NCBI GenBank assembly: GCA_937930235.1
Contig: CALGLJ010000084.1
Span: 1 to 62,313, forward strand
From: an uncultured Verrucomicrobiales bacterium
Lineage (GTDB): Bacteria; Verrucomicrobiota; Verrucomicrobiia; Verrucomicrobiales; Akkermansiaceae
DNA length: 62,313 bases
Direction of reading: 5' to 3'
Position 1 is the first letter of the stretch; every line of letters starts with the position of its first letter. Shown here piece after piece: positions 37,765-42,133 of this stretch. The position numbers and the translations under genes are program-made. Below the pieces are notes generated by a model that was given only the letters and a program-made list of their open reading frames with translations, was not told the origin of the DNA and did not search any database.

Positions 37765-39534
37765 CTATTGGCGAGTCGCTTCGACTCTGAAGAACGCTTG
37801 AGGTGTGAGCGTGTCGAGATCACCTAGGTTACTGCGCATGAGGTTAATCTCACCACTACCATCTAGGAGCGTTCCTGCGGGGATCACTTCAGGGTTTGGA
37901 TCTGGGAGAGTATCGAGCCGAAGTAGGCGGAAACTCAAATCCACAGCTTGATTACTCAGCGGATAATCGAAGGTCACCTGATTCCCTGCGTTGAGACCGA
38001 TTACGGGGGGCGCTGGAAAGGAGGTGACATCATTTGGGTCCCCTCCAAAGGCATATTCCTCAAGATTTGTGTGACCGTCCAAATCGCCATCATCTTCAGG
38101 ACCATCAGGAGAAGCCTGATTGAGCTGAGCCCAGAGTGCGTAGTCCAGATTTGGGTAAGGAATATTTTGGACATCCCATCCCAGATCTCTCATTACGGTG
38201 AGAGTGACATCAAGAGATGAGGTATCGGCAGGGAAGATATTCAGTGAATCTGGGCGCATGAGGATGCCAGTAGAGGTCAGTCCATCGAAATGAGAAATAG
38301 AACTCCCAGGCGCAAAAGCGAATGGAGTTTGTAAGAACGGTCTTCCCTGGAAAGTGCCAGGTCGGTCACCAGGGGGAAGAAGGGTCAGAGTTTCTCCATT
38401 GGCCAGAGAGCGGAAAGTCTGGCCGTTGGCAAGCGTAATTGCGAGGGTTGGGATGGATAGCCCTGGATCAGTTCCACCCAGCTCAATAATTTGCTGAGGG
38501 TTCGTATTCGCAATCACCACAGCGACTGCACCCGCAATTTCTGCACGAGATGATTTTGTAGAGAAATCGCAACCTCCACGGTCAATGAGGGCGATTTTAC
38601 CTGAGACATCAGCAGCATTAATGATCTCTTCACAGCCATCAGAATTTGGTGCTACCCCATCATCGACTAGCACAATCTCGGCGGTAATGCCGCCAGCGGG
38701 AACTCTGGGACCAAATGTTGCCGTCTCGGCAGGGAAGACCATTCCATCTGAAGTCCGCGTAATCGTTGCAAGATTATCACCATTGTTAATTTGGCTCTGA
38801 GATCCGATTTGAGTATTGCGCCCTCCCCATACCGTAAGGGGGCCAGCCGCCGCTGCTCCGAGGCGTTCCGCACTCGTCAGATCAGCCCATGATTCTCCAG
38901 TAGGGAGATAAGTCATGTTGCGTGTAAAGACATCTGGATTATCAAAAAAGAAATCTCCTGAATCATTATCAATCAAAGCACTAAATCCAAGACCATGTGC
39001 AATTTCATGTAGCATTGTTCGGAAAAAAAATGGGATCCCAGGAGTGGGAGGAGGAGAATCAATCCCATAGTACATACTGGCTGTTGTAACACAATTCCCT
39101 GCATCAATCTCAGCATTAATCCGAACGCTTATTTCAGAGCGGGCGGGATCAAGATCTTCTTCGGCGAGGTGATTCGCCAAGGCTGAGCCATAAAAAGTAT
39201 CACTGAGCGGTGCCCCGGGAAAATTTTGGAATGCACTGATCGTACTAGCTCCCGCAATTACTGCGCCTAAGGCGCTACAGGGTAAAGACTCAAATCTTGC
39301 GTCAATGACCACGGGGCCTTTGGGATTGAGGTGAGATTGCCAAATTTCAACGGCCCGCTCCATTGCGATTCGCCTTTGTTCACCAAGCGTAGTTCCCATG
39401 TTTCCAGCCACGGGAGTCCTTGCTTCCTCGGAGAAAAACCCTGTTCCCGGAGCATCGAGATAGTTCAAGCTGATTTGCGCTGATGCTTGCGCGGTGATGA
39501 GTCCAAAAAGTAGGAAAAAATAAGATTTTTTCAT
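37765..39534 (-). CDS. Secreted zinc metallopeptidase with inserted PA domain
   Basis: This 589-residue protein has a signal peptide (FFLLFGLITAQASA) and a zinc motif HEIAHGLGF at about residues 170-178. A third zinc ligand is probably the His of SISHFDG, near residue 410, followed by an ILMRP Met-turn-like segment and a VMRDLGWDV block. Between the two motifs is a protease-associated domain (about 255-385; GKIALIDRGGCDFSTKS). The C terminus has DGDLDGHTNLEEYAFGGDPND and ends QAFFRVEATRQ, the tail module also seen at 1016 and 20395. It is the last gene of an operon with the redoxin at 39911-40558; its start overlaps the upstream gene by 4 bp. Confidence 0.8.
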   Translation of the reverse strand: MKKSYFFLLFGLITAQASAQISLNYLDAPGTGFFSEEARTPVAGNMGTTLGEQRRIAMERAVEIWQSHLNPKGPVVIDARFESLPCSALGAVIAGASTISAFQNFPGAPLSDTFYGSALANHLAEEDLDPARSEISVRINAEIDAGNCVTTASMYYGIDSPPPTPGIPFFFRTMLHEIAHGLGFSALIDNDSGDFFFDNPDVFTRNMTYLPTGESWADLTSAERLGAAAAGPLTVWGGRNTQIGSQSQINNGDNLATITRTSDGMVFPAETATFGPRVPAGGITAEIVLVDDGVAPNSDGCEEIINAADVSGKIALIDRGGCDFSTKSSRAEIAGAVAVVIANTNPQQIIELGGTDPGLSIPTLAITLANGQTFRSLANGETLTLLPPGDRPGTFQGRPFLQTPFAFAPGSSISHFDGLTSTGILMRPDSLNIFPADTSSLDVTLTVMRDLGWDVQNIPYPNLDYALWAQLNQASPDGPEDDGDLDGHTNLEEYAFGGDPNDVTSFPAPPVIGLNAGNQVTFDYPLSNQAVDLSFRLLRLDTLPDPNPEVIPAGTLLDGSGEINLMRSNLGDLDTLTPQAFFRVEATRQ

Positions 39535-39860
39535 CTGACAACGGGGGTCTGGGTTTGGGGAGCAGCATGTCTTTGCTCAATGATCCCCTCGAGTCCTTGC
39601 TCGTCACCACGAACACAGGAAATTGTTCTTGAGTCATCGGCTGCCCGCACCAACACGCTGTAGTGCATTGGCATATTCTCGAGGGAAACTCGTTCCATCC
39701 CATTCGCATAGTGTTCGACTTCCACGATTTTACCATTATGCAGTGTCGTGCTGAATGTTGACCCCGAAGATGGCGAATCTTTCTCTGTCGCGTAGACGAT
39801 GACGGAAACCCCAAAGACCGCAGTAGCGATCAGGGATATCTTTAGTGGACTAAATTTCAT
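39531..39860 (-). CDS. Small secreted or membrane-anchored protein
   Basis: This 109-residue protein has a basic start and one hydrophobic stretch (ISLIATAVFGVSVIVYATE) that may be a signal peptide or anchor. The mature part has a short beta-like HNGKIVEVEHYANGMERVSLENM segment and a single Cys (ISCVRGDEQ). I do not recognise the family. It lies between the redoxin and the metallopeptidase, overlapping the latter start by 4 bp, so it is probably coexpressed and may help that enzyme (inference). Confidence 0.65.
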   Translation of the reverse strand: MKFSPLKISLIATAVFGVSVIVYATEKDSPSSGSTFSTTLHNGKIVEVEHYANGMERVSLENMPMHYSVLVRAADDSRTISCVRGDEQGLEGIIEQRHAAPQTQTPVVR

Positions 39861-39910: not shown

Positions 39911-40558
39911 TTACTTGGCATTGAGAGCTTCTTCTTGAACCGCCTTTTTCTGTGGTTCCACTTTTTCTTTTGCTTCTGGCTCGGCCACGGGAGCATCCGT
40001 GGACGCATTTCCTTCAAGCTTTGCCACGGCAGCTTCGACTCGTTCTTGGTATTTAGTCAAACCATCTCCACCGTGGAAAGGTCCTCCCATATTATGATGC
40101 AGCATTGTGCCATTCTCATCAAAAATAAGGTAGTAAGGAACGTATCGCGCTCCGATGGGGTAAGACGTTCTGGACATGACTGAAAAATTTTCGAGATCAG
40201 GAGTCCACCCCGCTTTTTCCAAATCCTTCAACATTCTCGATCCACCCCATGATTGATAGTGGGAGGCGATGAGTCGAAACGGCTTTCCTTCCATTTTTTT
40301 GGCCAAACTGACCATGCCGGGAGTGACCCGGACGCAGCCTGGTCAGGAACCCCAGAGCACAAGCAGGACAATCTTACCTTTCAGATCTTCGGCTTTCGAT
40401 ATCTTTGGCCCCGCAATATGTTTTCCCCAAACGATTTCGGAGCTGGTTTTCGGTGGCTTAGGAGCTTCTTCGGCCTTTTTTCCCTCTTCGGCGTGACAAG
40501 TCATGCTGAAAAGGAGAGTTGAGGCCATTGCGGCTAGGAATGGTACTTTTTGGAACAT
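39911..40558 (-). CDS. Thioredoxin-like protein with in-frame UGA: probable selenoprotein (UxxC)
   Basis: The 215-codon frame is open except for TGA at 40343-40345 (residue 72). Before it: a signal peptide (MFQKVPFLAAMASTLLFSMTCHA), a Glu/Lys/Pro linker and the strand GKIVLLVLWGS. After it: PGCVRVTPGMVSLAKKM and a thioredoxin-like second half with the cis-Pro strand RYVPYYLIFDENG. The stop sits exactly where the first Cys of CxxC belongs, giving U-P-G-C. A SECIS-like hairpin follows the UGA. GGGAG upstream supports the ATG at 40558. It would be a periplasmic thiol/selenol oxidoreductase heading the operon with the small protein and metallopeptidase. Alternatives are a nonsense mutation or a sequencing error of TGC/TGT. 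Ordinary TGA stops elsewhere exclude UGA as Trp. Confidence 0.75.
40308..40346 (-). promoter_or_regulatory. Putative bacterial SECIS element
   Basis: On the minus strand the UGA (40345-40343) is followed by 11 nt, then the stem CCGGG/CCCGG (40331-40327 with 40321-40317) with a UCACU loop. A perfect 7-bp outer stem, CUGACCA (40346-40340, containing the UGA) with UGGUCAG (40314-40308), closes the 39-nt structure. Spacing and a G-U at the top of the stem-loop are like the element in E. coli fdhF as I recall it. Confidence 0.7.
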
Positions 40559-40726: not shown

Positions 40727-42133
40727 TTACGAATACATCATCAAGATTGAATCCACGGCTTTTTCTTGATGCATGATTTCAGAAAAAATCACGAGAGGAG
40801 TCCCTGGTTCAATATCGCGTTTGGTCCGAAGAAGCTCCACCGCTGCCGCTACGGTATCGCGCGGGATGTCAAAAAATGGAATTTGGAACGTCCTCACTCC
40901 CCGAGAAAGCGTCAGTCCGGCACAAATCTCGCTCTGCGGAGAAAAGGCAAAAATGGAAGATCGGGGCCTTAAGAGAGCCGCTTGATGCGCGGTTCTTCCC
41001 GATTTAGTGAAGACGATCAGTAACGCTTTGGGGATGGAATCGGTGAGATTGACTGCGGCTTGAATCGTTTTCTGCTTATCGGTTTTGAGCGACACCTCTT
41101 TTCCATAGCCCATTCCCCCCGAACGCTCGATTCGTCTCGCCACCCGATCCATCAGCTCGACACAGCGCACGGGATATTTTCCCACCGTCGTCTCCCCCGA
41201 AAGCATGATCGCATCCGCTTCTTCATACACCGCGTTTGAAACATCCGTGACTTCCGCTCTCGTGGGAGTGGGATTCACAATCATAGACTCAAGCATATGA
41301 GTCGCCACGATGACTCGGGTCCCCATCTGATGACAGCGCTTCACGATCCGCCGCTGAATAATTGGGAGTTCCTCTACATGCACTTCGATCCCGAGATCTC
41401 CACGGGCTACCATGATCACATCCGATTCCTGAATAATATCATCCAGATGTTTCATCGCCTCTTGATCCTCTAATTTTGAGACAATCTGCGCATCTCCCCC
41501 TTCACGATGAAGCACTGACCGTAACTCACGCACATGGCTTGCATCTCTGACAAAAGATCCCGCAACGAAGTCCGCCTGACACTCTGCTGCCACTTTGATA
41601 TCAGCATGGTCTTTCTCAGTAAGAGCGGGCAGATTCAAACGAATACCCGGTAAATTAATGTGCCTCCGTGATCCCATTGACCCAGGAGTAATGACCGAGC
41701 ACGTCACCCGGTCGCTCGTCACCTGCTCCACCTTGACTAACATTTCCCCGTTATCGACGATGATTTCATCACCTACGGAAACATCATTGATCAAACCCTC
41801 ATAATTCACCGTCGTTGATTTCTCGATCTCAGGCGCGGCATTTTCTAAGCGGAATTCTACCAATTCCCCCTTCGCCAATTGCATCTTCTCATCCAAATCA
41901 CCGGTGCGAATTGAGGGCCCTTGAAGATCAAATAGCACCCCAACTGTTTTCCCAACTTCCGAAGCAACAGTGCGGATGCGAGTTACGATTTCTCGACACC
42001 AATCATGTCTCGCATGACTCATATTGAGGCGAAACACATCCGCCCCTGCTAAAATCATCTTTCGCAACATTTCTGCTGATTCAGTTGCAGGCCCTAGCGT
42101 ACAAATAATCCTCGTCTTCCTCACCATTGCCAT
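40727..42133 (-). CDS. pyk: Pyruvate kinase
   Basis: Pyruvate kinase converts phosphoenolpyruvate and ADP to pyruvate and ATP. The 468-residue sequence begins RKTRIICTLGPATES and has NMSHARHDW, LFDLQGPSIRTGD, the B domain, IVSKLEDQEAMKHLDDII (active-site Lys and Glu), MVARGDLGIEV, RVIVATHMLESMI and AIMLSGETTVGKYPVRCVELM, then the C-terminal regulatory domain. The first few residues (MAMVRK) allow ATG 42133 or 42127. It is divergent from pheT. Confidence 0.95.
   Translation of the reverse strand: MAMVRKTRIICTLGPATESAEMLRKMILAGADVFRLNMSHARHDWCREIVTRIRTVASEVGKTVGVLFDLQGPSIRTGDLDEKMQLAKGELVEFRLENAAPEIEKSTTVNYEGLINDVSVGDEIIVDNGEMLVKVEQVTSDRVTCSVITPGSMGSRRHINLPGIRLNLPALTEKDHADIKVAAECQADFVAGSFVRDASHVRELRSVLHREGGDAQIVSKLEDQEAMKHLDDIIQESDVIMVARGDLGIEVHVEELPIIQRRIVKRCHQMGTRVIVATHMLESMIVNPTPTRAEVTDVSNAVYEEADAIMLSGETTVGKYPVRCVELMDRVARRIERSGGMGYGKEVSLKTDKQKTIQAAVNLTDSIPKALLIVFTKSGRTAHQAALLRPRSSIFAFSPQSEICAGLTLSRGVRTFQIPFFDIPRDTVAAAVELLRTKRDIEPGTPLVIFSEIMHQEKAVDSILMMYS

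Follow-up and report, generated by a model that had tools for sequence, protein, structure and literature searches.

A very probable selenoprotein gene of the UxxC thioredoxin-like kind, with a likely SECIS hairpin downstream of its active-site UGA, in an uncultured Verrucomicrobiales bacterium

The question raised by this locus is whether a single TGA within an otherwise open thioredoxin-like frame, placed exactly at the first position of the CxxC motif, is a stop codon, a defect, or a codon for selenocysteine (Sec). The locus lies in the window, by which we mean the whole 62,313-nucleotide stretch of DNA that was analyzed, from an uncultured Verrucomicrobiales bacterium of the Akkermansiaceae. 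The reading at which we arrive, with a probability of roughly 0.94, is that the product of the gene is an exported thiol-disulfide oxidoreductase of the ResA/TlpA/DsbE type, with Sec in place of the nucleophilic Cys (U72-P-G-C75), and that its SECIS element lies at positions 40314-40300.

Results

The reading frame and its TGA

On the minus strand, the frame from an ATG at 40558 to a TAA at 39911 specifies 215 residues and is open save for one TGA (40345-40343, minus strand), which falls at residue 72 in the context ...VLWGS-U-PGCVRV.... The frame bears out the claim of an earlier note on this DNA that one UGA occupies the first position of the CxxC motif, giving U-P-G-C. The selenoprotein gene (39911-40558, minus strand) encodes a putative signal peptide (approximately residues 1-23, 40490-40558, recognized by eye in the translation), a linker, and a thioredoxin-like domain containing U72-P-G-C75, followed by a cis-Pro segment (YVPYY) and a low-complexity C-terminal tail before the stop; as judged from the sequence, the product is probably exported. 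ORF calling with translation table 11 replaces this gene with two frames, one of 80 aa (40585-40343) and one of 134 aa (40315-39911), and automatic annotation would split it in the way that had been predicted. In the window, 26 TGA codons terminate open runs of at least 150 codons; these runs are frames of unverified gene status, and their ends are consistent with the use of TGA as an ordinary stop.

Predicted fold and family

A structure model of the protein, built with eight sequences (mean pLDDT 73.1, pTM 0.67), has the thioredoxin-like order of elements. When residues 31-190 are divided into 16 ten-residue blocks, 13 of these have a pLDDT above 75; residues 1-28 and 188-215 are below 50. 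In the model, U72 immediately precedes a helix (residues 73-88), which puts UxxC at the N terminus of the first active-site helix, and V140-P141, at the cis-Pro place, is invariant in 11 subfamily sequences; together these two features mark a thioredoxin-like protein. Foldseek assigned a probability of 1.00 to ResA- and DsbE-type structures, with TM scores of 0.57-0.70 when normalized to the target and 0.35-0.48 when normalized to the query, and an rmsd of ∼4-7 Å for most of the matches, among the 50 listed. Profile matching to thioredoxin-like chains of the PDB gave a best E value of 1.9e-8. The ResA/TlpA/DsbE Cys enzymes rank high in the fold comparison (4nmu, 3gl3, 3c73, and 2f9s) but have Cys in place of the Sec of the window protein, with which they share 16-21% identity in those matches.

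All Pfam and NCBIfam matches of the protein are below cut-off. NF041054 (WAxxUGC_long), like the window protein, is by its family name ResA-like with an active-site Sec, but the window protein reaches only 14.1 of the 300 bits that this model requires, and its motif is different. The Prx-like UxxC selenoproteins (PF00578/PF08534) have UxxC in common with it and match weakly as domains (E 0.004-0.008), but the scores are under the gathering cut-offs. According to the accessible part of the text of PMC13188914, the UxxC thiol-disulfide isomerase-like and TlpA-like selenoproteins (cd02966) have the same fold, the same Sec position, and a bacterial SECIS within the gene, and share the predicted redox role, whereas the present subfamily has the active-site motifs UPGC, UVGC, and UIGC and was found only in records named Akkermansiaceae, Roseibacillus, or Verrucomicrobiales and in genomes of the host's family; the comparison with the families in that part of the text was made through NCBIfam and Pfam scans rather than through their sequences. 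Since no named model matches it, the protein is assigned to a new subfamily within a kind of UxxC selenoprotein that is already known.

Relatives and the alternation of Sec and Cys

The genome to which the window belongs (2.89 Mb in 179 contigs, 86.6% complete) contains five matches to the protein, its own included, each with one internal TGA. Two are subfamily paralogues on contig C115, with 61% (WGSUPGC) and 39% (GGUPGC) identity, and the other pair, also thioredoxin-like, has the motifs WUGSC (C115) and WUGPC (C83). A second WUGPC gene adjoins the match on C83, so that the genome has, besides the subfamily members, three further TGA-bearing thioredoxin-like genes. The two genes on C83 (5921-9289) are adjacent and oppositely oriented, and both have WUGPC and a SECIS-like hairpin; on C115, three UGA-bearing thioredoxin-like genes (a UPGC fusion, a UPGC gene, and a UGSC gene) are clustered within ∼6 kb from position 616. 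The pattern TGGTGAGGNYCNTGY occurs at four places in this genome (one for the reversed-pattern control), three of which are genes already known; the fourth, C147:4483, was rejected as a gene because its frame is insufficiently open.

Matches to the protein are present in 73 of 145 sampled genomes of the family. The eight closest relatives outside the own genome (42-51% identity, one per genome) all have TGA at the position of residue 72; two of these matches ran past a TAG or TAA near their ends in the 145-genome search and have a single TGA in a search of 260 genomes of the family. In the latter, conducted with a profile of the 11 subfamily sequences at an E value of 1e-15, ten genomes matched, nine of them holding 11 TGA-bearing genes and the tenth (G048) a distant TGA-free match (4.6e-17); the best 13 candidates at most were scored per genome, so that weak members of the subfamily may have been missed. 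A 387-genome sample of the phylum, with at most the best nine candidates scored per genome, gave matches in the own genome and G048 only, the other eight matching genomes presumably lying outside that sample. By record name, seven related loci belong to Akkermansiaceae (three), Roseibacillus (two), and uncultured Verrucomicrobiales (two).

The 11 genes, which come from different species and encode proteins with 38-61% identity to that of the window, have their TGA in one alignment column. On this sequence evidence, a TGA that recurs at the same place in all 11 genes from nine genomes is more than chance. In the TGA-free homologues that were fetched, the codon for residue 72 specifies Cys in 20 of 20 cases; a match with three TGA and five TAG codons (G024:C19) was left out of this set. 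The in-frame UGA is therefore aligned with Cys or Sec of homologues, as is expected of a selenoprotein gene, and the homologues carry what the earlier note had looked for at residue 72. One gene of the WUGPC family (L105) has UGPS, a Sec without a resolving Cys, and retains the hairpin.

The SECIS hairpin

The only consensus structure found by RNAalifold in the 11 subfamily genes is a hairpin, UGGUC-A/G...GGCCA, that corresponds to 40314-40300 of the window. There, the core hairpin is UGGUC[AGUUU]GGCCA (40300-40314, minus strand), with a loop at 40309-40305 that starts 33 nt after the UGA. Its consensus energy over the 11 genes is −5.9 kcal/mol. Codons +11 (GTC) and +14 (GCC) after the UGA are identical in all 11 genes and codon +12 is AGT or GGT, and the synonymous identity of codons +9 to +14 is 0.81 as compared with 0.42 elsewhere, the highest of 147 six-codon windows. 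The 5-bp stem has no two-sided change, and its single variable pair goes from A-U to G-U. When the full 60 nt are folded, the core hairpin is in the minimum free energy structure of six of the 11 genes, the window being outside those six, and when 12 nt are trimmed from the 5′ end, to imitate a ribosome positioned on the UGA, ten genes have it, the window included; one relative (L033) favors it in none of five foldings. The window fragment less 18-21 nt folds with −8.2 kcal/mol, where the bSECIS criterion is −7.5 kcal/mol or lower.

An automatic bSECIS scan of best folds with the −7.5 threshold, which passed seven of 16 sites and failed the window, was replaced by a loop motif. This generalized motif, a loop [AG]GU[UC] on a stem of 5 bp or more at a distance of 16-37 nt from the UGA, was chosen after viewing the 16 defining sites, 15 of which have it, and was then tried on sites that were still unfetched. 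Of 29 further UGA sites, each unique, 28 have it. Most of the 29 come from a pair of related families that were both represented among the defining sites, and they are therefore not independent events; the 29 derive from 38 loci (L097-L134) less two missed by the site search and seven duplicates in their first 60 nt. The motif occurs at none of the 20 Cys homologues and at none of the 26 TGAs that close long open runs, and its chance rate is 139 in 18,286 codon positions of long window frames and four in 204 ordinary Cys codons. At the single miss (L097), a 6-bp hairpin with the loop CGUGA can be seen by eye in the same place. The two loci that the site search missed, L103 (with a TAG within 40 codons downstream) and L105 (with UGPS in place of UGPC), both bear the motif. 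The window loop resembles that of Escherichia coli fdhF. Both the loop and the spacing of 33 nt fit the bSECIS model as given in the accessible part of PMC13188914. The SECIS of the gene is likely to be the hairpin at 40314-40300.

The earlier note had placed the element in a hairpin directly after the UGA. A strong fold does exist there. It has the lowest energy predicted for this part of the window (−21.1 kcal/mol, z −2.83), one of 200 shuffled sequences folds as stably, and 14 of its 16 pairs are kept in the two own-genome paralogues. However, only 8-11 of the 16 pairs are kept in the other eight of the ten relatives, the loop is without an early G, and the UGA, which was thought to be inside a closing 7-bp stem, is unpaired in the predicted fold. 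The long hairpin would also pair bases expected to be inside the ribosome. A ribosome that has the UGA in its A site would mask the nucleotides immediately 3′ of this codon, so that, to judge by the foldings, the long hairpin could not form and the core hairpin would be free. That Sec is inserted through the long hairpin is thus quite improbable, and the conserved SECIS-like hairpin further downstream, at 40314-40300, is the better candidate.

Sec machinery of the host

The own genome contains selB (contig C121, 646 aa, 291.9 bits against a cut-off of 242.25) and selD (contig C25, 378.1 bits against 125), the latter with an in-frame TGA of its own in CAGUASK. This selD gene (L026) has a hairpin with the loop AGUUU 32 nt after its TGA. 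No selA was found in the 86.6%-complete assembly, and no tRNA-Sec above cut-off was found there when 150 of 282 candidates were scored; a search with the tRNA-Sec of a relative as query likewise found none. Fourteen tRNA-Sec-like places, all below cut-off, were rejected, ARAGORN giving only ordinary tRNAs at the eight that were fetched. On the window itself, ARAGORN found no tRNA and an Rfam scan no match. In 20 other sampled genomes of the same genus, selA is present in all and a tRNA-Sec above cut-off in 16, and gaps in the assembly are consequently the simplest reading of their absence here; since the two genes are on different contigs or far apart in the relatives, two separate gaps are required. 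The 73 genomes with matches divide into 32 with a TGA-bearing match, of which 30 have selA, and 41 whose matches are all TGA-free, of which three have it (Fisher p ∼8e-15, uncorrected for kinship); the exceptions among the 32 are the own genome (G000) and G110. A further 32 genomes of the family have selA and are without a match to the protein at an E value of 0.001, and there other selenoproteins presumably maintain the trait.

That tRNA-Sec and selA were not found in this assembly speaks for a reading of UGA as an ordinary amino acid without selenium, as Cys or Trp, whether through an altered tRNA or under a different genetic code, but selB and selD are present, the SECIS-like hairpin is found at UGA sites and not at those of the Cys homologues, and TGAs end long open runs of the window, with the proviso on gene status given above. 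We regard this reading as very unlikely. The earlier proposal of a Sec-containing UxxC thioredoxin-like protein is supported by the Sec and Cys homologues, selB, and a selD of the Sec type.

Discussion

Two further accounts of the TGA can be weighed against these results. Were it a true stop, the locus would encode two proteins, of 80 aa and of 134 aa, the second restarting at the ATG at 40315. Both ORFs exist mechanically, but the break between them falls within the active-site motif of what is modeled as a single uninterrupted fold, and the TGA-free homologues read through this point with Cys, which makes two separate proteins hardly credible. The least probable account is that the TGA is an error of sequencing, or a nonsense mutation that has recently made a pseudogene of a Cys gene; it is in effect refuted by the TGA of the relatives, for although the draft is fragmented and selA was not found in it, the protein is conserved after the TGA and the codons of the hairpin are conserved to an extra degree. 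The gene is very probably a real selenoprotein gene.

From these data we infer export, catalysis, a substrate, and the actual insertion of Sec at residue 72, and a mechanism can be outlined. During translation, the hairpin at 40314-40300 would recruit SelB with Sec-tRNA-Sec. In catalysis, the selenol of U72 would be the group that attacks a disulfide of the substrate, with Cys75 as the resolving residue.

Upstream of the selenoprotein gene is a gene (40727-42133, minus strand) that by eye reads like pyruvate kinase. Downstream, a gene for a secreted-looking 109-aa protein (39531-39860, minus strand), which matches post-PEP-CTERM-1 weakly (25.2 bits against a cut-off of 28), starts 50 nt after the stop of the selenoprotein gene and overlaps by 4 nt a gene for a 589-aa protein (37765-39534, minus strand), which has a PA domain (E 6.1e-17) and a zinc-protease-like motif, HEIAHGLGF. 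The 589-aa protein scores 28.5 bits of the 80 required for the NF038122 metalloprotease model, far under the cut-off, its matches to the M36 model sit on the PA domain, and it has no Pfam peptidase match. The closest paralogue (L006:616-2829, plus strand, on C115) is a 737-aa fusion of a WGSUPGC thioredoxin with M8 and TraB/PrgY/gumN domains, in which the M8 leishmanolysin match has 22.6 bits (cut-off 21) and the TraB/PrgY/gumN match 121.6 bits, and it bears HETFHVMGFG. The fusion hints at a connection with proteases. At the seven related loci, no convincing HExxH neighbor was found among open stretches of more than 110 codons within ∼3 kb, and the link is therefore drawn from the own genome. 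Two HExxH matches, both at L083, were rejected because their frames look spurious. It is accordingly a speculative and rather doubtful proposal that the UPGC/UVGC subfamily is a Sec-only redox enzyme of the Akkermansiaceae now tied to secreted metalloproteases.

In the accessible part of PMC13188914, 119 selenoprotein families or subfamilies are tallied, with UxxC thiol-disulfide isomerase-like and redoxin types among them, and its listing has no mention of Verrucomicrobia. None of PMC5029168, PMC2398784, and PMC9312934 has "Verrucomicrobi-" in its main text. Among the matches listed for selenoproteins of Verrucomicrobia, Akkermansia, Verrucomicrobiota, or Roseibacillus, mostly open-access literature, there is no paper that treats them; the portions consulted of PMC3281104 name homologues of SELO, a different protein family, in Verrucomicrobia, and those of PMC4807772 report selenoproteins in Planctomycetes.

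The present findings add a subfamily from a host group that is not treated in the selenoproteome papers examined, insofar as their available texts show; each of the 11 close members identified has UGA at the active site. Gene calling with table 11 would split genes like this one, and the shared [AG]GU[UC] loop, which is 25-33 nt after the UGA at the sites examined, provides a simple rule for the search for selenoprotein genes in this family. The fusion paralogue provides a testable functional lead: if the link with proteases is true, selenium chemistry would serve the disulfide handling or the redox switching of exported proteases.
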